DNA of 22,658 bases from Calditrichota bacterium (GTDB lineage: Bacteria; CLD3), in the NCBI GenBank assembly GCA_008501735.1, contig QQUF01000020.1:1-22658 (forward strand), written 5' to 3'. The notes below the pieces were generated by a model. It had not been told where the DNA came from. It was given only the letters and a program-made list of their open reading frames with translations, and ran no database searches. Both the position numbers and the translations under genes were made by a program. How positions within the stretch are numbered: position 1 is the stretch's first letter; each line of letters starts with the position of its first letter. This document shows, one piece after another, positions 1 through 22,658 of this stretch.

Positions 1-281
1 TTGTGAGTAAAAAAGATACAAATCCAATATCGTATGAAGACCTTTTACAATTCTTACAACAGAAGTTAAAAGAAGAAAAAAGAGCTACTCAAACAGTAAA
101 AAAAGAGATTACAGTTTTTGCAGGTGAAACATATGCTGAGAAGTTGGAGAACTTTGAGCGAAAAGTATTAGAGAATGCTTTGGAATCCAATAATTGGAAC
201 AAATCCACAACAGCTAAATCTTTACAACTTACCCGAAACAAACTCTACAATCTTCTTACAAAACACAATCTTTTGAAATAG
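1..281 (+). CDS. C-terminal end of a sigma-54-dependent activator (partial, 5' end outside window)
   Basis: The open frame enters from the left edge without a stop. A GTG at base 3 could in principle start a 92-residue protein, but the content looks like the tail of a longer one. The last ~45 residues (FERKVLENALESNNWNKSTTAKSL, split here as FERKVLENALE then SNNWNKSTTAKSL, then LTRNKLYNLLTKHNLLK) have the layout of a Fis-type helix-turn-helix that closes NtrC-family activators: an N-rich turn (NNW), AAKSL-like second helix and a recognition helix RNKLYNLL. The C-terminus of the kinase-activator at 16846-21840 has the same layout (KNDWKKAKTANELGISRVKLDRIL). Residues 1-45 are Lys/Glu rich and probably a linker after the AAA+ domain. 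It lies directly upstream of the first TGTAC operators, so it is the best candidate for the protein that binds them. That assignment is inference from position. Confidence 0.72.
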   Translation, partial: VSKKDTNPISYEDLLQFLQQKLKEEKRATQTVKKEITVFAGETYAEKLENFERKVLENALESNNWNKSTTAKSLQLTRNKLYNLLTKHNLLK

Positions 282-405: not shown

Positions 406-531
406 TGTACCAAAATCTGTACAAATCTAAAACTGTACTAAAACCAGTACAAGACCACAAAAAATTAGCCTCAACACCTTAAAACCTCGATTGTCATCAA
501 ACTCCTCCAAAAGTGTTTAGCTTTTGGTACA
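406..531 (+). promoter_or_regulatory. Operator cluster 1: paired UAS plus proximal site (TGTAC type)
   Basis: Three 18-bp sites: TGTACCAAAATCTGTACA (406-423), TGTACTAAAACCAGTACA (434-451) and TGTTTAGCTTTTGGTACA (514-531). The first two are near-perfect inverted repeats with start-to-start spacing of 28 bp. The third keeps a good right half (GGTACA) and a weaker left half (TGTTT). The cluster sits upstream of a -24/-12 promoter, where enhancer sites of NtrC-family activators are expected. The bound protein is probably the activator whose tail ends at 281 (inference). These are the least perfect distal sites of the five clusters. Confidence 0.8.
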
Positions 532-683: not shown

Positions 684-3600
684 ATGAATACATTTTCAAA
701 AACACTTCTTTCTTCTTTAGCTTTTAGCTTAGTAATTAGTACAAATGTATTTGCAGATGCTGAAACAAAATTAGGCTCTTTAGAAGGTGCGACCCAAACA
801 AAAATTACAGCAAGTGATGGTGCTGCATATGATAGTTTTGGTCGTTCAGTATCTATCAGTGGAAATTTTGCTATTTCCGGTGCAAACCAAGATGATGATG
901 ATGGAAGTGCTTCAGGTTCTGCAATTATTTATGAGCTAAGTGGAGGAACTTTGAGTGAACACACAAAGTTGACTGCAAATGATGCAGCTTCTAGCGATAA
1001 ATTTGGAATAGCTGTTGCGATAGATGGTAATTATGCAATTGTTGGTTCATACGATGATGATGACAATGGAGATTCTTCAGGCTCAGCTTATATTTATTTT
1101 TATGACGGCAGTTCTTGGAGTCAACAAGATAAACTTACTGCTAATGATGGAGCAGAATATGATAGATTTGGTTGGTCAGTATCAATCAGTGGAGATTATG
1201 CTATTGTTGGTGTGGTGCCAATTGATTTTATAAATGATACTCCCGGTTTTGCTTATATTTTTAAAAGAAGTGGAACCTCTTGGAGTCAAGAAGCAAAACT
1301 AACAGCAAGTGACGGAGCAGCATATGATTATTTTGGACGTTCAGTAGCAATTAGTGGAGATTATGCTATTGTTGGAGCTTATGGTGATGATGATAATGGA
1401 GATTTATCTGGTTCTGCTTATATCTTTAACAGAAGTGTAAGTTCTTGGAGCCAACAAGATAAACTAACTGCGAGTGACGGATTTTCAGGTGATTTATTTG
1501 GATATTCAGTATCAATCAGTGGAGATTATGCTATTGTTGGAGCTGAGAACGATGATGATAATGGAACAGATTCAGGTTCAGCATATCTCTTTGAAAGAAG
1601 TGGAAGTTCTTGGAGTCAACAAGATAAACTAACAGCAAGTGATGGAGCTTCAAGTGATTCCTTTGGAGAATCAGTTTCTATCAGTGGTGATTATGCAATT
1701 ATTGGTGCTAGTGCTGATGATGATAATGGAAGTGCTTCAGGTTCTGCTTATATCTTTAGCAGAAGTGTAAGTTCTTGGAGCCAACAAGATAAATTAACTG
1801 CGAGTGACGGAGTTTCAAGTGATTTATTTGGGGTTTCTGTATCAATCAGTGGTGATTATGCAATTGTTGGAGCTGATGGCGATGATGACAATGGAGATTT
1901 ATCTGGTTCTGCTTATGTGTTTAATAGAAACGAAAATTTTTGGGATTTTAAACTTGGAATTTCAGCAGGCGATAAATTTGGAATAGCTGTTGCGATAGAT
2001 GGTAATTATGCAATTGTTGGTTCATACGATGATGATGACAATGGAGATTCTTCAGGCTCAGCTTATATTTATTTTTATGACGGCAGTTCTTGGAGTCAAC
2101 AAGATAAACTTACTGCTAATGATGGAGCAGAATATGATAGATTTGGTTGGTCAGTATCAATCAGTGGAGATTATGCTATTGTTGGTGTGGTGCCAATTGA
2201 TTTTATAAATGATACTCCCGGTTTTGCTTATATTTTTAAAAGAAGTGGAACCTCTTGGAGTCAAGAAGCAAAACTAACAGCAAGTGACGGAGCAGCATAT
2301 GATTATTTTGGACGTTCAGTAGCAATTAGTGGAGATTATGCTATTGTTGGAGCTTATGGTGATGATGATAATGGAGATTTATCTGGTTCTGCTTATATCT
2401 TTAACAGAAGTGTAAGTTCTTGGAGCCAACAAGATAAACTAACTGCGAGTGACGGATTTTCAGGTGATTTATTTGGATATTCAGTATCAATCAGTGGAGA
2501 TTATGCTATTGTTGGAGCTGAGAACGATGATGATAATGGAACAGATTCAGGTTCAGCATATCTCTTTGAAAGAAGTGGAAGTTCTTGGAGTCAACAAGAT
2601 AAACTAACAGCAAGTGATGGAGCTTCAAGTGATTCCTTTGGAGAATCAGTTTCTATCAGTGGTGATTATGCAATTATTGGTGCTAGTGCTGATGATGATA
2701 ATGGAAGTGCTTCAGGTTCTGCTTATATCTTTAGCAGAAGTGTAAGTTCTTGGAGCCAACAAGATAAATTAACTGCGAGTGACGGAGTTTCAAGTGATTT
2801 ATTTGGGGTTTCTGTATCAATCAGTGGTGATTATGCAATTGTTGGAGCTGATGGCGATGATGACAATGGAGATTTATCTGGTTCTGCTTATGTGTTTAAA
2901 ACAACAGATGGAGGAAGTTCTTGGAGTCAACAAACAAAGCTAAGTGCAAGTGACGGAGCAGCATATGATTATTTTGGACGTTCAGTAGCAATTAGTGGTA
3001 ATTATTCGATTTGTGGTGCTTATGGCAATGATTCGTTTGGAAGTAATTCTGGTACTGCTTACATCAAAACTTATCATCCTTTTGATGACGGAAATGTAAC
3101 ACAAACTGTTTCTGGAGATGGAACTCAAAGTTTTAATGATGGAACTGGCGAAGACACTGGCTTGGACATTGACTTCACTGGTGTTTCAAATTCTGCTGAC
3201 ATTCAATGCCAATCTTTCTCTGAAACTCCTGCTACAACAGATGGAATTTCTGGGACAGTTCAACCAATTCGTTGGGAAATTACTGACGGAGGTTTAGCTT
3301 TCACAAATGCTGAAATCAGAATCGATATGACTACACTTCCTATTACAATTTCAAATCCAGGAGATGCGGTAATTTATCACCGTTCAACTCCCGGAAGTGG
3401 AAGTTTTACAGCTCTTGCAACAACTGTTGATGGAAACGAATTAGTTGGAAACACAGGTAGTTTTTCTGAATTTGCAATTGGTGGCGGAGATGCTCCTCTT
3501 TCAGTTGAACTTGATTTTTTCACAGCTCGTCAAATTAAAAACACAATTCAACTTACTTGGTCAACTGCTTCTGAAACTGACAACGAAGGTTTTAATGTTT

Positions 3601-4115
3601 ATAGAAAAACAGGTGAAAGTGACTTCATTCAAATCGCTTCTTACAAAACACACGAAGAACTTCTTGGACAAGGAAACACAACTGCAAACACAAACTACAC
3701 TTTTGTTGATGACTCTGAACTAATTGTAAATGAAACTTACACTTACTTTGTTTCTGATGTAGAATTTTACGGACTCGAAACCAAGCACGAAGAATTAGAA
3801 CAAAGTGTAGTTTTTGGTGTGGAATCAGAAGTTGTAAGAAAATTCGAATTAGCACAAAACTTCCCTAATCCTTTTAACCCAACAACAACTCTTCAATTTC
3901 AAGTTGCTAAAGATTCAAGAGTTTCTTTGAAGATTTACAACATTCTTGGAAAAGAAGTGAAAACTTTAGTTAATAAATTAAAAGTTGCCGGAAGTTACAG
4001 TGTAGAATGGGACGGATTAAACAACCAAAATATCCCTGTTAGTACAGGCGTTTATTTTGCAAAAATCCAAGCAGGTTCATTTTCTAAAATTGTGAAAATG
4101 TCACTTTTGAAATAA
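684..4115 (+). CDS. Secreted 14-repeat FG-GAP beta-propeller protein with T9SS sorting domain
   Basis: The 1143-residue product should be exported: residues 1-24 are a signal peptide ending NVFA before DAETK. Residues ~30-790 hold 14 FG-GAP_2-type repeats of ~54 residues with the core [DN][17 protein letters not shown], an Asp-rich loop (DDDDNG) and GSAYIF, followed by SWSQQ. Residues ~803-935 form a domain ending [10 protein letters not shown], shared with the protein at 4629. Residues ~938-1050 resemble a fibronectin-III-like module ([16 protein letters not shown]). The last ~90 residues are a T9SS type A sorting domain ([11 protein letters not shown] ... GVYFAKI). An internal 931-bp duplication doubled six repeats. 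AAGGA precedes the ATG at good spacing. It is expected to be outer-membrane-anchored or released. Its ligand is unknown; adhesion or binding is only a guess. Confidence 0.9.
994..1924 (+). repeat. Internal direct repeat, copy 1 (931 bp)
   Basis: Bases 994-1924 recur at 1969-2899, offset 975 bp. The encoded residues are identical and the bases agree everywhere I compared. The copy covers FG-GAP repeats 2-7 of the protein. The reading frame is kept because 975 is a multiple of three. Confidence 0.95.
1969..2899 (+). repeat. Internal direct repeat, copy 2 (931 bp)
   Basis: Second copy of 994-1924, separated from it by a unique 44-base joint (1925-1968). The joint encodes a shortened, atypical inter-repeat segment ([16 protein letters not shown]), as would be left by an unequal exchange. 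Copy 2 encodes FG-GAP repeats 8-13. Confidence 0.95.
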
Positions 4116-4176: not shown

Positions 4177-4303
4177 TGTACCGAAATCAGTACAAATTTG
4201 AAACTGTACTACAATTGGTACAACTATTCAAAATCTTACATTGAAGTCTCTGAAAGTTAGTTTTGTTGTAAGTTGCAATAAAAAATGTTTTGGTTTTGGT
4301 ACA
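4177..4303 (+). promoter_or_regulatory. Operator cluster 2: paired UAS plus proximal site (TGTAC type)
   Basis: TGTACCGAAATCAGTACA (4177-4194), TGTACTACAATTGGTACA (4205-4222) and TGTTTTGGTTTTGGTACA (4286-4303). Start-to-start spacing is 28 bp for the distal pair and 81 bp from the second to the third site. The first site begins only five bases after the preceding terminator. Confidence 0.85.
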
Positions 4304-4382
4304 CTTTAGTTATTCGGACCAAAATAGCTAAAATCTTCTCATTCTGTCCGTTCTAACTACTTATTGGCTGGTTTTTTTGACT

Positions 4383-7288: not shown

Positions 7289-7414
7289 TGTACTGATTCC
7301 AGTACAACTCAAACTTTGTACTGATTTTAGTACACTTTTACAAAATCTACATTTCAAAGAGATTAAACTTCTATTATCAACAAGTAAGCGAAAAAGTGTT
7401 TTGGTTTTGGTACA
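7289..7414 (+). promoter_or_regulatory. Operator cluster 3: paired UAS plus proximal site (TGTAC type)
   Basis: TGTACTGATTCCAGTACA (7289-7306), TGTACTGATTTTAGTACA (7317-7334) and TGTTTTGGTTTTGGTACA (7397-7414). Distal spacing is 28 bp; second to third is 80 bp. The rest of the gap between 7126 and 7595 shows no gene; short open frames there lack a ribosome binding site. Confidence 0.86.
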
Positions 7415-7493
7415 CTTTTTATAATTCTGAAAGCTCTTTTGTTTTATACTCATTATCGAGCTTGCAGGTATATTATTAGGTATGTTTAGCTTT

Positions 7494-9774: not shown

Positions 9775-9899
9775 TGTACTGAAATCAGTACAACTCAAAT
9801 TATGTACTGATTTCAGTACATAATTATAAAAAGTGCATTTTAATATTTTAAACCTTGATTATTGCTAATTTCCTTCAAAAGTGTTTCGAATTTGGTACA
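9775..9899 (+). promoter_or_regulatory. Operator cluster 4: paired UAS plus proximal site (TGTAC type)
   Basis: TGTACTGAAATCAGTACA (9775-9792) and TGTACTGATTTCAGTACA (9803-9820) both have perfect 8-bp arms (TGTACTGA / TCAGTACA), and each is the reverse complement of the other. The proximal site is TGTTTCGAATTTGGTACA (9882-9899). Distal spacing 28 bp. These are the best sites in the window and define the consensus. Nothing else recognisable lies between 9649 and 9774. Confidence 0.9.
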
Positions 9900-9979
9900 C
9901 TTTATCGAATTCTACCAAATTCCAATAAATGCCCACATTATCGACGATTCAGATGGTTGACACATTGTTTCTGATTAGT

Positions 9980-9995
9980 TGGCACGTTAGTTGAA
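9980..9995 (+). promoter_or_regulatory. Sigma-54 promoter of micropeptide 3 / FG-GAP gene 4
   Basis: TGGCACGTTAGTTGAA with TTGA at -12. It begins 81 bp after the end of the proximal operator, one base more than in the first three units. Predicted start of transcription is near 10005. Confidence 0.82.
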
Positions 9996-10036
9996 ATAAC
10001 TGAAAATTAAGAAGTTACGACTTTTAAACTTTAAAT

Positions 10037-12273: not shown

Positions 12274-12398
12274 TGTACTGAAATCAGTACAACTCAAATT
12301 ATGTACTGATTTCAGTACATAATTATAAAAAGTGCATTTTAATATTTTAAACCTTGATTATTGCTAATTTCCTTCAAAAGTGTTTCGAATTTGGTACA
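12274..12398 (+). promoter_or_regulatory. Operator cluster 5: paired UAS plus proximal site (TGTAC type)
   Basis: Sites at 12274-12291, 12302-12319 and 12381-12398, identical to cluster 4. The gap from 12148 to 12273 is the same featureless stretch as 9649-9774. Confidence 0.9.
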
Positions 12399-12478
12399 CT
12401 TTATCGAATTCTACCAAATTCCAATAAATGCCCACATTATCGACGATTCAGATGGTTGACACATTGTTTCTGATTAGT

Positions 12479-12494
12479 TGGCACGTTAGTTGAA
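12479..12494 (+). promoter_or_regulatory. Sigma-54 promoter of micropeptide 4 / FG-GAP gene 5
   Basis: TGGCACGTTAGTTGAA, identical to 9980-9995. Predicted start of transcription is near 12504. Confidence 0.82.
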
Positions 12495-12535
12495 ATAACT
12501 GAAAATTAAGAAGTTACGACTTTTAAACTTTAAAT

Positions 12536-16845: not shown

Positions 16846-19800
16846 ATGACATACGAAATTATCTCAAAAATTGCATCTGGAACTTACGGAACTGTTTACA
16901 AAGCTCAAAATTCAGATGACAAAAAATTTTATGCCTTAAAATTAATTCACGAACAATATAAAAACCCAACTGAGTTAAAAAGAATCAAAAGAGGTTTCGA
17001 CTCTGCTAAGAAAGTTACACACCAAAATTGTGTAAAAATGATTGAATGGTACGAAGACGAATTACAAACAGGTTTTGTGATGGAATATGTTGAAGGAGAA
17101 TCAATTTCTTTGGAAACGCAAGTCGGAGAATCTGTTCAGAGTAAAATTGCAAAAGTGATTCAAATTTGTAATGGGCTTGAAGCCTTGCATTCAGTCGGAA
17201 TTATCCACCGAGATTTAAAACCTGAAAATATTTTAGTAACAAAAGAGGGCAAACTAAAAATCACTGACTTTGATTTGGTAAAACTAAATGAAAGTCAAAC
17301 TCTAACAGCTTCAGGTGCATTTATTGGAACTATAAAATATTCATCACCAGAGCAATGCAAAGATGCGAGTAGAATTGACCTTAGAAGTGACCTTTACTCA
17401 CTTGGTGTAATTTTTTATGAAATGGTTACTGGTGAACTTCCGATTAAAGGCGATAACTTACCACAGATTGCATTGGGTCACGTAAGAGCTCCTGTTGTTT
17501 CTCCAAAAATTCTGAACCCAGCAATTCCAAACTCTGTTGATAAAATTCTTCTCAAACTTCTTGCGAAAAACCCTCAAGAAAGATTCCAAAATAGTAGAGA
17601 ATTGGCTTTGAGTCTTAACAAGGCTTTGGCGGAAAATTTTGAAGATTCTACGGAAGAAAAACAAGCATATTTATTACCTCCAAGTTTTGTCTCACGAGCA
17701 GTTGAACTAAATGTTTTGGAACAAGCATTTTCTGAAACAACTAAGAAAAAATGTCAAACTTTATTTCTTGTTGGTGAATCGGGAATTGGAAAAAGCAGAC
17801 TTTGGGAAGAGTTCAAACTTGGTTTAGATTTGCAAAATGCTCTCGTTCTTGAAGGGGCTTGTTCAACAAGTAAGAATATTTTTGAACCTTTACAAAATAT
17901 CATTTTAAAGGGAATCGAATCTTTAGACGAAATTTCTGACACAGAAAAATTAGAAGTTCTTGGAAAATTAGCTTGGGATTTGTCAAAGATTCAACCAAAT
18001 ATTTTGACTTTGCCAATTTTTACTAAAATTGATAAACTGCCAGAGTTGCAAGGTTCTTCAGGGCAACTACGTTTATTTGAGACTGTAACGACCTTTTTCC
18101 AAAATCTGTCCAAACTAAAATCAACTTTGGTTTTGTTCCTTGATGATTTTCATTGGGCAGATGAATTTACTGCTAAATGGATTTCTTACGCTTTGGGTAA
18201 ATTTCAAAATTATCCAATTATGATTGTTGGCACTTACCGTTCAACAGAAATGGCACAATCAAGTTTTAATGCGACAATTCAAGATTTTAAGCAAAAAGAA
18301 GTTGCAAAAATTATTGAACTTAAGCCTTTAACTCTTACACAAACCGTAACTTTATTGACTTCAATTTTAGGAAAATCTGACCCTGTTGAAACCGATTTTG
18401 CAAAAGTAATTTTCAATGCTACGAATGGAAATCCTCTTTTTATTCGTGAGTTAATTTATAATTTATTTGCTAAACACCAACTCAAACAAGATGATGGGAA
18501 ATGGGATTTAACAGCTGAATACTTTAAAAAAATTGAAATTCCCAACACAGTTCATTCAGTTGTTTTAGCAAGATTAAAATTGTTGTCAAAAAATGTATTT
18601 GAACTTTTACAAGTTGCGTCATTGGTGGGTAAATCATTCAAATTTGAAACTGTTCAAATTACTTTAGCTAAGTCGGAAGAAGCGATTGCTAGGCTTTTGG
18701 AAAATGCTACAAATGAAAATTTAATTTTTAGAGAAAAGAACCTTTCTTATAGATTTGTTCACGATGTTGTAAGAGAAAGTTTTCAGAATAGTCTTACTAA
18801 AAGAAGGAAAATTGAATTTCACAAAAAAATTGGTAATTTTTTAGAAAAGAAATTCGAGCATAAAGAAGAGGAGGTGATTGAAGAATTAGCAGATCATTTT
18901 TTTGAAGCAAAGGAAAACTCTAAGGCATTTGGCTATTGTCAAAAAGCAGGAAGAAAAGCAAATCAAAATTATGCTCATTTAAGAGCTTTAGAATATTTTG
19001 AAAAGAGTATTGAGGTCGTAGATAAAACTACTGAACCAAAAAAATACATTAACTCAATGTTAAATATTGCAAATAATTATTTTTTAATTGGTGATTGGTC
19101 AAGATTAGAATCAATCGTGAATGAAATATTAGAAATTTCAATAGAAATTAAAGACTTTCATTCTTATGCAAGAACTGTGAATTGGTATGGTGGAGTTTTT
19201 CTTTACAAAACAGATTATTACAAAGCTTTAGAACATTACGTTGTAGGTTACATCTTTTATAAAAAAATTGAAATGCCATTAGAGTCTGCTTCAGTTCTTG
19301 GAAATATTGCAACAACGCTTTCTTCTTTAGGGAAATATAAAGAAGCACAAAAGAAATATGATGAAGCACTTGTTGATTTGCGAAAATTAAAAAATGAAAG
19401 AGAAATCGCCCGAATCATTGGTCATTTAGGAATTACTTATGGACAACAAGGAAATTATGAAAAGGCAGTTGAGTGCTTTCAATATAAAATTTATGTTTCT
19501 AAAAATTTAAATGATTTAAACGAATTGGAATCTGCTTATGGGAATATGGGGTTGGCTTTGTTTCATCAAGGTAAATATGAAGAAGCGATAAAATACTTTG
19601 AAGCCGAAATTGAAATTTGCGAAAAAGCAGGTTATAAATACGGATTAGGAAATGCCACAAGAGGAATTGCAGATTCATTTAAAGCAATTGGTAAAATCGA
19701 AGACGCAATCCTTAATTTTGAAAAAAGCATTTCACTTTGTGAAGAAATCGGAATTCCTCACTTCAGTATCAAATCTCTAGATGGATTGGCACTCATTTTT

Positions 19801-21840
19801 ATTAATGAAGGAAATTTTGAAAATGCTATTGAAAGGTTAAATGAAAAAAAATCTTTGTGCGAAACTTTAAAGAATGAAGAAGAGTTAGTAAAATCTTCAA
19901 TTGAGTTGAGCAAAATTTATCTTGAATTAAACCAACCTGAGAAAGCCAAAGAAGAAATTAGCTTTGCATTGAAGTCTTCGGAAAATTTGAATGGCGAATT
20001 ATTAGAGGAAAAAATAAAATTAGTTGAAGCAAAGATTTTATTTAAAGAAAATGCTTTTAATGAATCGCTTGAACTACTTCAAAGCATTTCAAACAAAATT
20101 TTAGATTTTGATAAAAATATTTTAATTGGGAAAATTAATTTTGCATTAAAGAAAAATGATTTGGCAATAAAATCCTTTGAATCAATGTCAAAAAAATATT
20201 CTAAAGAAATTCAACAAGGTCAAATACTTCTTGAATTGGCGAAAGTTACAGAATCTGAAAAAATAAAACAAAACGCAATTACACTTTTTGAAAACTTACA
20301 AAAACGTGAAAATAAGTTTTACTATAAAAAATGTTTGGAAGAACTTTATTCACTAAAGTTTGAGGAATTTCGGCTTCACACTCCATTAATTACATCGCTC
20401 ATAAAATGGATGACTCCAGAAACTCTCTTTGACGAACTTCTTTCATTTTTACAGAAAGAAACTGATTCATATGGTTGCCAAATAATTTTAAACGATGCAA
20501 AGACTAAAAAACTTGAGACTTGTGCTGTTTCACCAAACTTAATTGAAGAAGATGTTGATTTCAGTAAATCTGTTATCGAGAAAGCGATTCTAGATAAAAA
20601 ACCAACTTTAATTCACAATGCTGTTGAGGTCCCTGAATATGAAGCTAACAAAAGTATTGTTGGCAAAATCTTTCTTTCTGTAATTGCTGTCCCTTTGCGA
20701 GTGAAAGAGGAAATTATAGGAGCACTTTACATTGACAGAAGAGATTTTGAAAAAGGTGCTTTAACAAATTCTGACTTGGAAAAAGTAGTGGAGATTTCAA
20801 AGATTCTTTCGCCTGTAATTTTGAGACAGAACGAAGCGATGAAAATGAAAATTGAGTCAGATGTTAAACAATTAGGTATTTTTATTGGCAACTCTTTGGA
20901 AATGCGAAAAGTTTATGAGGAGATTAAAGATGCAGCTTCAGTTAATTTTTCAGTTTACATTCACGGTGAAACAGGAACAGGAAAAGAATTAGTTGCAGAA
21001 GCTTTACATAAATTTTCTCCAAGACGTAACAATCCTTTCATTTTAATAAATTGTGCAACGATTCCAGAAAATCTTGCTGAAAGTGAACTCTTCGGACACG
21101 AAAAAGGAGCTTTCACAGGAGCAAGTTCAACACAAATTGGTAAATTCGAGTTAGCAAATGGAGGGACAATTTTCCTTGATGAAATCGGTGAATTGCCTTT
21201 AATCCTTCAGTCTAAGTTGCTTAGAGTTTTGCAAAACAAAGAAATTTGGAGAGTAGGTGGAACTTCAAGAATAAAAACTGATGTAAAAATAATTGTTGCA
21301 ACACACAAGGATTTGGAAGCAGAAGTTGCGAATGGAAATTTTAGGGAAGACCTTTTTCATAGGCTTAATGTTTTGAAAATCGAAGTTCCACCTTTGCGTA
21401 AACGTTCGGAGGACATTCCAGCACTGATTTACAATTTTATAGAAAAGTATTCTCAAGAGACTAACAAGGAGATTCACGGAATTTCCAATGATGCACTTGT
21501 TCTGCTTTGTGAACAGCAATGGAAAGGAAATGTTCGTGAGTTGGAAAATTTTATTGCAAAACTAGTAGTAAGGGACAAGGGGAATCAGATTTTAAGTTTA
21601 GACACATTGCAAACTATTGCTCCAAAATTGAAGAAAAAGCAAATTAGCACAACCCAAAGTAACAGTTTGTTTGATAGTTTGAATTTAGACGGAGAAAGTT
21701 TGGACGAGATTGTGAATCAGTTCAAAGGAGAGTTGGTTAAAATGAGATTAGATAAAAATGACTGGAAGAAAGCTAAAACCGCAAATGAACTTGGAATAAG
21801 CCGAGTTAAATTAGATAGAATTTTAAAATCAATTAATTAA
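16846..21840 (+). CDS. Ser/Thr protein kinase - AAA ATPase - TPR - GAF - sigma-54 activator fusion (1664 aa)
   Basis: I start at ATG 16846 (MTYEIISK) rather than TTG 16819 because the homologue at 22599 begins at the same point. Residues 1-~265: Hanks-type kinase with G-loop ASGTYGTV, Lys32, HRDLKPEN (Asp123) and SPE; the usual DFG is DFD at 141-143. ~280-660: AAA_16-like ATPase, Walker A GESGIGKS (310-317), Walker B LFLDD (433-434), then a helical part with FVHDVVRESF. ~680-1165: TPR-like repeats. ~1189-1335: GAF-like sensor. ~1343-1580: sigma-54 AAA+ domain with GETGTGKE (1374-1381), GAFTGA (1421-1426, the sigma-54 contact loop) and FLDEIGE (Asp1445). Last ~45 residues: Fis-type helix-turn-helix. 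It should bind enhancers and drive open-complex formation in response to kinase or ligand signals. It sits directly upstream of the CGTAAC operators. Confidence 0.93.
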   Translation: MTYEIISKIASGTYGTVYKAQNSDDKKFYALKLIHEQYKNPTELKRIKRGFDSAKKVTHQNCVKMIEWYEDELQTGFVMEYVEGESISLETQVGESVQSKIAKVIQICNGLEALHSVGIIHRDLKPENILVTKEGKLKITDFDLVKLNESQTLTASGAFIGTIKYSSPEQCKDASRIDLRSDLYSLGVIFYEMVTGELPIKGDNLPQIALGHVRAPVVSPKILNPAIPNSVDKILLKLLAKNPQERFQNSRELALSLNKALAENFEDSTEEKQAYLLPPSFVSRAVELNVLEQAFSETTKKKCQTLFLVGESGIGKSRLWEEFKLGLDLQNALVLEGACSTSKNIFEPLQNIILKGIESLDEISDTEKLEVLGKLAWDLSKIQPNILTLPIFTKIDKLPELQGSSGQLRLFETVTTFFQNLSKLKSTLVLFLDDFHWADEFTAKWISYALGKFQNYPIMIVGTYRSTEMAQSSFNATIQDFKQKEVAKIIELKPLTLTQTVTLLTSILGKSDPVETDFAKVIFNATNGNPLFIRELIYNLFAKHQLKQDDGKWDLTAEYFKKIEIPNTVHSVVLARLKLLSKNVFELLQVASLVGKSFKFETVQITLAKSEEAIARLLENATNENLIFREKNLSYRFVHDVVRESFQNSLTKRRKIEFHKKIGNFLEKKFEHKEEEVIEELADHFFEAKENSKAFGYCQKAGRKANQNYAHLRALEYFEKSIEVVDKTTEPKKYINSMLNIANNYFLIGDWSRLESIVNEILEISIEIKDFHSYARTVNWYGGVFLYKTDYYKALEHYVVGYIFYKKIEMPLESASVLGNIATTLSSLGKYKEAQKKYDEALVDLRKLKNEREIARIIGHLGITYGQQGNYEKAVECFQYKIYVSKNLNDLNELESAYGNMGLALFHQGKYEEAIKYFEAEIEICEKAGYKYGLGNATRGIADSFKAIGKIEDAILNFEKSISLCEEIGIPHFSIKSLDGLALIFINEGNFENAIERLNEKKSLCETLKNEEELVKSSIELSKIYLELNQPEKAKEEISFALKSSENLNGELLEEKIKLVEAKILFKENAFNESLELLQSISNKILDFDKNILIGKINFALKKNDLAIKSFESMSKKYSKEIQQGQILLELAKVTESEKIKQNAITLFENLQKRENKFYYKKCLEELYSLKFEEFRLHTPLITSLIKWMTPETLFDELLSFLQKETDSYGCQIILNDAKTKKLETCAVSPNLIEEDVDFSKSVIEKAILDKKPTLIHNAVEVPEYEANKSIVGKIFLSVIAVPLRVKEEIIGALYIDRRDFEKGALTNSDLEKVVEISKILSPVILRQNEAMKMKIESDVKQLGIFIGNSLEMRKVYEEIKDAASVNFSVYIHGETGTGKELVAEALHKFSPRRNNPFILINCATIPENLAESELFGHEKGAFTGASSTQIGKFELANGGTIFLDEIGELPLILQSKLLRVLQNKEIWRVGGTSRIKTDVKIIVATHKDLEAEVANGNFREDLFHRLNVLKIEVPPLRKRSEDIPALIYNFIEKYSQETNKEIHGISNDALVLLCEQQWKGNVRELENFIAKLVVRDKGNQILSLDTLQTIAPKLKKKQISTTQSNSLFDSLNLDGESLDEIVNQFKGELVKMRLDKNDWKKAKTANELGISRVKLDRILKSIN

Positions 21841-21849
21841 AACAATAAA

Positions 21850-21951
21850 AACGTAACGATTTTGAAACGTAACAAAAATGTTACGTTGTTGTTTTGCGTC
21901 ACAAAAACCATCAAAAGCCTATTTTTGTAATTATGTAACAAAATCGTTACG
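21850..21951 (+). promoter_or_regulatory. Operator cluster 6: CGTAAC-type sites
   Basis: Three 18-bp sites of form [CT]GTAAC-N6-G[TA][TA]ACG: CGTAACGATTTTGAAACG (21852-21869), CGTAACAAAAATGTTACG (21868-21885, with 8-bp perfect arms if extended to AACGTAAC / GTTACGTT) and TGTAACAAAATCGTTACG (21934-21951). The first two overlap by two bases. The third lies 77 bases before the -24 box, like the proximal TGTAC sites. Site length and N6 core match the TGTAC family, but the half-site differs. The middle site followed by GTTGTTTT could also act as terminator of the kinase gene. Confidence 0.78.
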
Positions 21952-22028
21952 TTTGTTCGAAACTACTTAATTAGACGTATTTCATCTAAGTTATTGATTT
22001 TACTCCTTTTCTGTGAAATTTTAAAGTT

Positions 22029-22044
22029 TGGCACGGCGATTGAA
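22029..22044 (+). promoter_or_regulatory. Sigma-54 promoter of the 22096-22481 unit
   Basis: TGGCACGGCGATTGAA-type box: TGGCACG, N4, TTGA, then AT. It starts 78 bp after the end of the third CGTAAC site. Predicted start of transcription is near 22055, about 40 bases before the first start codon. Confidence 0.8.
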
Positions 22045-22353: not shown

Positions 22354-22481
22354 TGCCTTACAAGTATGAAATTTCTTATAAAAAAGCTATTCTTAGGAAG
22401 AAAAGAAGGAACGCCTTAATTCTTTCTCTAGTTTCTGGTGTGCTAACCTTAGCTTTTTTGAATTTTATAATCCAAATTTAG
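22353..22481 (+). CDS. Divergent MPYK-type membrane micropeptide (42 aa)
   Basis: Starts at the ATG overlapping the previous stop (TAATG), so translation is probably coupled. The product begins MPYKYEISYKKAILRKKRRN, strongly basic, then one hydrophobic helix (residues ~21-38, ALILSLVSGVLTLAFLNF) and ends IIQI. Shared with the other small proteins are the MPYK start, size, basic cluster before the helix, and an Asn near the helix end. Its presence in a unit with different operators suggests such peptides are a standard part of these kinase/sigma-54 circuits. Confidence 0.68.
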   Translation: MPYKYEISYKKAILRKKRRNALILSLVSGVLTLAFLNFIIQI

Positions 22482-22598: not shown

Positions 22599-22658
22599 AT
22601 GCCTTACAAAACCATTTCTAAAATCGCATCTGGAACATTCGGAACAGTTTACAAAGTT
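22599..22658 (+). CDS. N-terminus of a second Ser/Thr kinase of the same family (partial, runs off the window)
   Basis: The 20 visible residues start MPYKTISKIASGTFGTV and align without gaps to MTYEIISKIASGTYGTV of the 16846 protein, including the kinase glycine-rich loop. The upstream sequence (GAGAATTTTATG) matches the weakly SD-like context of that gene (AAGAACTTTATG). A short palindrome TTTAAGTTTTTACTTAAA lies 20-40 bases upstream (22561-22578). By homology it is probably another kinase/sigma-54 activator fusion, but only the kinase start is visible. Confidence 0.85.
   Translation, partial: MPYKTISKIASGTFGTVYKV

Follow-up and report, generated by a model that had tools for sequence, protein, structure and literature searches.

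Sigma-54 activators bind operators, oligomerise on activation, loop to the polymerase, and hydrolyse ATP to open the promoter; the insulation of paralogous regulators after duplication is usually studied with gene pairs. Local, distinct operators for sigma-54 activators were already known from the EBP set of Desulfovibrio vulgaris, in which about half of the 33 EBP motifs resembled no other motif in the set and motif similarity, according to the authors, did not always equal DNA-binding-domain similarity (PMC4641369). Fis Arg85 contacts a conserved G at ±7 (PMC4784862), a recognition code was previously read from local operators for the LacI family (PMC2978694), and an association of sigma-54 with cell-exterior control has been described (PMC3162934).

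The stretch of DNA analyzed here (the window; 22,658 nucleotides) was the entire contig C38, one of the 59 contigs that make up a 4,144,650-base genome. Its activators and their paralogs resembled the NtrC-family EBPs of D. vulgaris in their sigma-54 AAA+ domain, Fis-type HTH, and sites upstream of -24/-12 elements, often near the regulator gene, but (i) they constituted one paralogous family with N-terminal Ser/Thr kinase, ATPase, and TPRs, (ii) an about three-site array lay behind each gene, in most cases predicted to drive T9SS surface proteins, and (iii) motif similarity largely did reflect DNA-binding-domain similarity. They shared with Fis the type of HTH, and the Arg85–G distance of ±7 recurred in their 17-bp operators; Fis recognizes mainly the shape of the DNA and makes a single critical base contact, while the activators here had specific half-sites of 5–7 bases. 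The LacI study likewise derived residue–base rules from regulator/operator pairs beside the regulator gene, but it dealt with another fold and family in many genomes, while most pairs here came from one genome and are expected to act via sigma-54. The literature searched, outside of which lay most subscription journals, yielded no description of a family of kinase-fused sigma-54 activators whose operators had diverged along with them.

Two activators and their operators in the window

The kinase-activator W (Table 1) gave a PF00158 (sigma-54 AAA+) match with E=6e-71 and contained the GAFTGA loop. Full-length NorR, NtrC, and NifA models matched it through residues 1651–1663, i.e., including the HTH, and no separate HTH Pfam match was among the 25 matches listed; the recognition helix in the C-terminal Fis-type HTH was GISRVKLDRILKSI. 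The AAA+ domain with GAFTGA, the Fis-type HTH, rpoN in the genome (one gene), and a -24/-12 element downstream of the sites assigned W to the NtrC-family sigma-54 EBPs; 37 strong sigma-54 activator domains were present in this genome.

Table 1. Features of the window (a dot marks features assigned to neither strand)
Feature	Positions	Strand	Remark
First activator W0, C-terminal end, helix QLTRNKLYNLLTKH	1..281	+	cut by contig start
W0 operators TGTACCAAAATCTGTACA and TGTACTAAAACCAGTACA	406..451	.	before -24 box at 610
W0 operators TGTACCGAAATCAGTACA and TGTACTACAATTGGTACA	4177..4222	.	before -24 box at 4382
W0 operator pair	7289..7334	.	before -24 box at 7493
W0 operator pair	9775..9820	.	before -24 box at 9979
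W0 operator pair	12274..12319	.	before -24 box at 12478
Kinase-activator W	16846..21840	+	Ser/Thr kinase, AAA_16 ATPase, TPR, GAF, sigma-54 AAA+ (GAFTGA), Fis-type HTH; from Pfam and C-terminus
W operator 1 CGTAACGATTTTGAAACG	21852..21869	.	2 mismatches
W operator 2 CGTAACAAAAATGTTACG	21868..21885	.	perfect
W operator 3 TGTAACAAAATCGTTACG	21934..21951	.	1 mismatch; centre 85.5 bp before -24 element
Sigma-54 -24/-12 promoter TTGGCACGGCGATTGAA	22028..22044	+	sequence scan; rpoN in genome
Predicted W target, 85 aa	22096..22353	+	N-terminal hydrophobic segment, no known family
Start of further kinase-activator (MPYKTISKIASGTFGTVYK)	22600..22658	+	cut by contig end

The initial annotation had placed three 18-bp CGTAAC-N6-GTTACG sites behind the kinase-activator, and all three were recovered: the first lay 14 bp beyond the W stop codon (21838) and overlapped the second by two bases, and between this stop and the -24/-12 element three matches (≤2 mismatches) were observed against 0.21 ± 0.46 expected, a number reached in 0/100 shuffles. 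The distance of 77 bases from the last site to the -24 box likewise stood, with 76 bases to the first T of TTGGCACGGCGATTGAA and 77 to TGG. Genome-wide, CGTAAC-N6-GTTACG (≤1 mismatch) had three matches, two of them W sites, and the control also had three, so it was the clustering, and not the count alone, that was significant.

The TGTACTGA circuit of W0 was larger than initially described: in place of a single promoter, five were found, W0 operators standing before five genes of the window. Three sites per promoter had been claimed; two were strong, while the third was degenerate (5–6/16 mismatches), although it occupied the matching place (centre 87.5–88.5 bp before the -24 element). The geometry said to be common to both circuits was partly so: site centres lay at 167.5/151.5/85.5 bp in W and 195.5/167.5/87.5 bp in W0, agreeing in a last site at about 86–88 bp and one at 167.5 bp, while the middle sites differed. 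The word TGTACTGA-N2-TCAGTACA (≤2 mismatches) had eight matches in 4.14 Mb, all within the window, against one for the reversed control.

Promoter regions 9775–9998 and 12274–12497 were identical over the compared stretch, and each preceded an FG-GAP gene encoding similar 622-aa proteins, thus pointing to a recent duplication. Within the 1143-aa FG-GAP protein at 684–4115, a long segment was repeated almost verbatim. Small MPYK-starting ORFs, like kinase-activator starts, followed the promoter at 22356–22481 of the window and near 4778 of L086; they may be left over from the duplication of an activator start.

Very probably, the kinase/ATPase/TPR/GAF sigma-54 EBP, its own operators, and the -24/-12 promoter make up one regulatory module, whose DNA binding, activation, signal, and in vivo orthogonality we infer from the sequence. 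In each module, the EBP gene would be followed by about three copies of its own palindromic operator and then by the -24/-12 promoter from which exported proteins would be expressed. The Fis-type HTH at the C-terminus of the W protein would bind CGTAAC-N6-GTTACG, its Arg85 contacting the G at ±7.5; once the sensor half of W was triggered (its kinase, ATPase, TPR, and GAF domains being presumably sensory), the protein would assemble as an AAA+ ring, which would loop to the sigma-54 polymerase at 22028, open the promoter by ATP hydrolysis, and drive the 22096 gene.

Operator words across the activator family

Seven other loci of the genome matched the W protein over nearly full length (38–43% identity), and further loci matched it partially, several being cut by contig ends. 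Nine genomes of the phylum were searched: a second searchable genus of the family contained two clear W-family members (L217 and L218), and none was found at the same threshold in the other seven genomes; a wider scan of genome contigs brought up generic sigma-54 activators in a broad range of phyla, none of the W subfamily. Tandem modules occurred on contigs C47, C24, and C38. Many contigs (C38, C47, C23, C12, C13, C10, C43, and C1) broke off within a kinase-activator gene, and the intact chromosome therefore probably holds more modules than were counted here, lying next to each other.

The DNA behind each activator was read as far as the first -24/-12 element. A repeated palindrome lay directly upstream of the sigma-54 promoter for 12 activators of this genome and for two activators of that class in the other genus, its word varying with the locus or with the HTH subclass (half-sites written from the outer to the inner end; N, spacer): (i) CGTAAC N6 in W, TGTACTGA N2 in W0, TGTAAC N5 in L078a, TGTTAC N5 in L079, TGGCTCT N5 in L086, GGGTCT/GGGTTC N5 in L078b, TGTACGA N4 in L088, TGAGCC N5 in L077a, TTTAGGC N5 in L082, AATAGTC N5 in L077b, TATGGC N5 in L080, and GTTTCC N6 in L081; and (ii) TGCCTT N5 in L217 and TTTAGGC N5 in L218. 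The survey of paralogs proposed in the initial annotation thus yielded many activators each with its own operator word beside the gene. Homologs without adjacent inverted repeats, which would have spoken against the proposal, were a minority: no palindrome was visible in L087 despite its -24/-12 element and standard HTH, and L076, L083, L091, and L092 had neither promoter nor operator downstream, other genes coming next in L076 and L083.

A protein-blind search for the top-scoring palindromic word present in three copies, set against 60 shuffles per locus, was composition-weighted because a count-only palindrome statistic was underpowered in AT-rich DNA. It recovered these operator words or close parts of them at the 14 promoter-bearing loci, all of which outscored 60/60 shuffles (z 4.1–14.3); clear operator copies numbered two in L080 and one in L218. 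Activators with no promoter behind them fell within the range of their own shuffles in 7/9 cases, while L069 and L093 nonetheless scored high, with hairpin-like repeats. A tandem AGTGAG/CTCACT repeat at L069 8547–8620 (on the minus strand, as read from the end of the locus) came after a further kinase sigma-54 activator that lacked a clear promoter, and in L078 17133–17197 one element may be both terminator and operator.

Whole-genome searches covered the words TGTACTGA, CGTAAC, TTTAGGC, and TGCCTT. The first two behaved as given above, and all three genome matches (≤1 mismatch) to the TTTAGGC operator lay at its own module (C1); blind prediction of TGCCTT sites for the L070 helix elsewhere in the genome stayed at chance level. 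When 13 operator models were scored against 13 regions, the own region ranked first in 13/13, a result that shows distinctness rather than discovery since the models were built from the same sites. The larger off-diagonal scores were mostly between relatives (L078a/L079, L086/L078b, and L082/L080).

The architecture, claimed to be kept, was conserved within subclasses and only loosely overall: the last-site centre lay 63–98 bp before the -24 element across the family, and upstream sites varied. It lay at 83–88 bp in W, W0, L078a, L079, L086, and L078b, with centres of 235/155/87 bp in L078a, 235/154/86 bp in L079, 119/84 bp in L086, and 118/83 bp in L078b; in both W0 and L088, about 80 bp came after a 28-bp pair. 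Exact helical phasing was weak at 10.5 bp (R=0.54, p=0.02), the best period within 10–11.5 bp being 11.5 bp (p=0.003), and a division of last-site centres into four groups (63–64, 71.5–74, 83–87.5, and 98 bp) is only suggestive.

Co-variation of recognition helix and operator

Recognition helix and operator had been suggested to co-vary, and they did so both at a single residue and, more broadly, by Mantel correlation. With Fis numbering, and with the anchor G taken at ±7 in 17-bp dyads or ±7.5 in 18-bp dyads (e.g., W), the nine Arg85 activators had the anchor G in 63/64 half-sites and the five without Arg85 (Asn, Asn, Asn, Phe, and an odd helix in L081) in 0/24. By activator, this was 9/9 vs 0/5 (Fisher p=0.0005, kinship ignored), in a test whose position came from the Fis literature and which was devised with the tabulated pairs already at hand. 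On a protein tree of the AAA+ and HTH region (W0 left out; several branches weakly supported), the Arg85/G trait changed three times, giving about three separate co-changes, and the non-Arg L080 and L081 adjoined Arg-bearing relatives (supports 81/96 and 91/80). The pairing of Arg85 with G at ±7/±7.5 is a correlation in sequence.

The closest activator pairs had both helix and word in common; L082 and L218, from two genera, shared the helix DNKRLDRLL and the word TTTAGGC-N5-GCCT. When first run, on 14 pairs and with BLOSUM distances over 14 residues, the Mantel test kept L077a (ending inside the recognition helix) and L081 (HTH not alignable) and gave r=0.07 and p=0.26. With these two left out, specificity residues correlated with operators at r=0.50 (p=0.0004, n=12), a correlation partly chosen post hoc, as the repeats came after the non-significant first result. 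It fell to r=0.44 without the cross-genus twin and to r=0.35 (p=0.007) with a single DN-subclass member, where p was 0.007–0.30 depending on the measure; other measures gave weaker correlation.

The palindromes might instead be RNA hairpins, i.e., terminators or attenuators ending the activator genes: W site 2 can fold as RNA (-13 kcal/mol, z -2.2), and two facing operator copies in L078b formed a long perfect hairpin followed by T's, terminator-like (L078 17133–17197). Such an origin is nevertheless extremely improbable: the word itself, not just pairing, recurred about three times per locus, the copies lay 63–250 bp before a sigma-54 promoter, the word followed the recognition helix and Arg85 the ±7 G, and the TGTACTGA word also preceded four further target genes not behind any activator gene. 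Another alternative is a different regulator, common to neighboring genes, that would bind the palindromes while the adjacent activator binds elsewhere. Operator assignment does rest on adjacency and correlation, but no other regulator family alternated with the words, and the anchor G, at the position known from Fis, followed Arg85 of the neighboring activator at three distinct points of its tree, which makes a second regulator very improbable.

A more serious alternative, though still an unlikely one, is that the activators do bind the adjacent operators but the correlation reflects shared ancestry of whole modules and no readable code. Operators were most alike among close relatives (L078a/L079, L086/L078b, and the DN subclass), the sample was 12–14, and the correlations dropped when the DN subclass was cut to one member; against this, the Arg85/G trait changed repeatedly, and L080 and L081 stood beside Arg-bearing relatives. 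By the preferred reading, duplication would have produced paralogs whose recognition helix and operator diverged together into parallel circuits with little cross-talk. We consider it rather likely that at least a dozen paralogous kinase-linked activators have co-diverged with their operators and are mutually insulated, mostly with their own sets of surface beta-propeller proteins, and that they embody a readable Fis-HTH code with an Arg85–G±7 anchor and several natural anchor losses.

Predicted targets and biological meaning

A T9SS sorting tail was present in 7/7 paralog targets tested and in 2/2 W0-cluster targets tested in the window, and the targets scanned with Pfam had LDL-receptor-class-B or FG-GAP beta-propeller repeats; the small predicted W target was unlike them. 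One genome offered about a dozen related activator/operator pairs of intermediate divergence, among them near-twin words about one base apart (TGTAAC/TGTTAC and GGCTCT/GGGTCT). These pairs make the recognition code of the Fis-type HTH directly testable, which would help to predict the targets of thousands of sigma-54 activators. For the organism itself, they point to a repertoire of surface proteins divided into sets, each served by a kinase-bearing sensor of its own.
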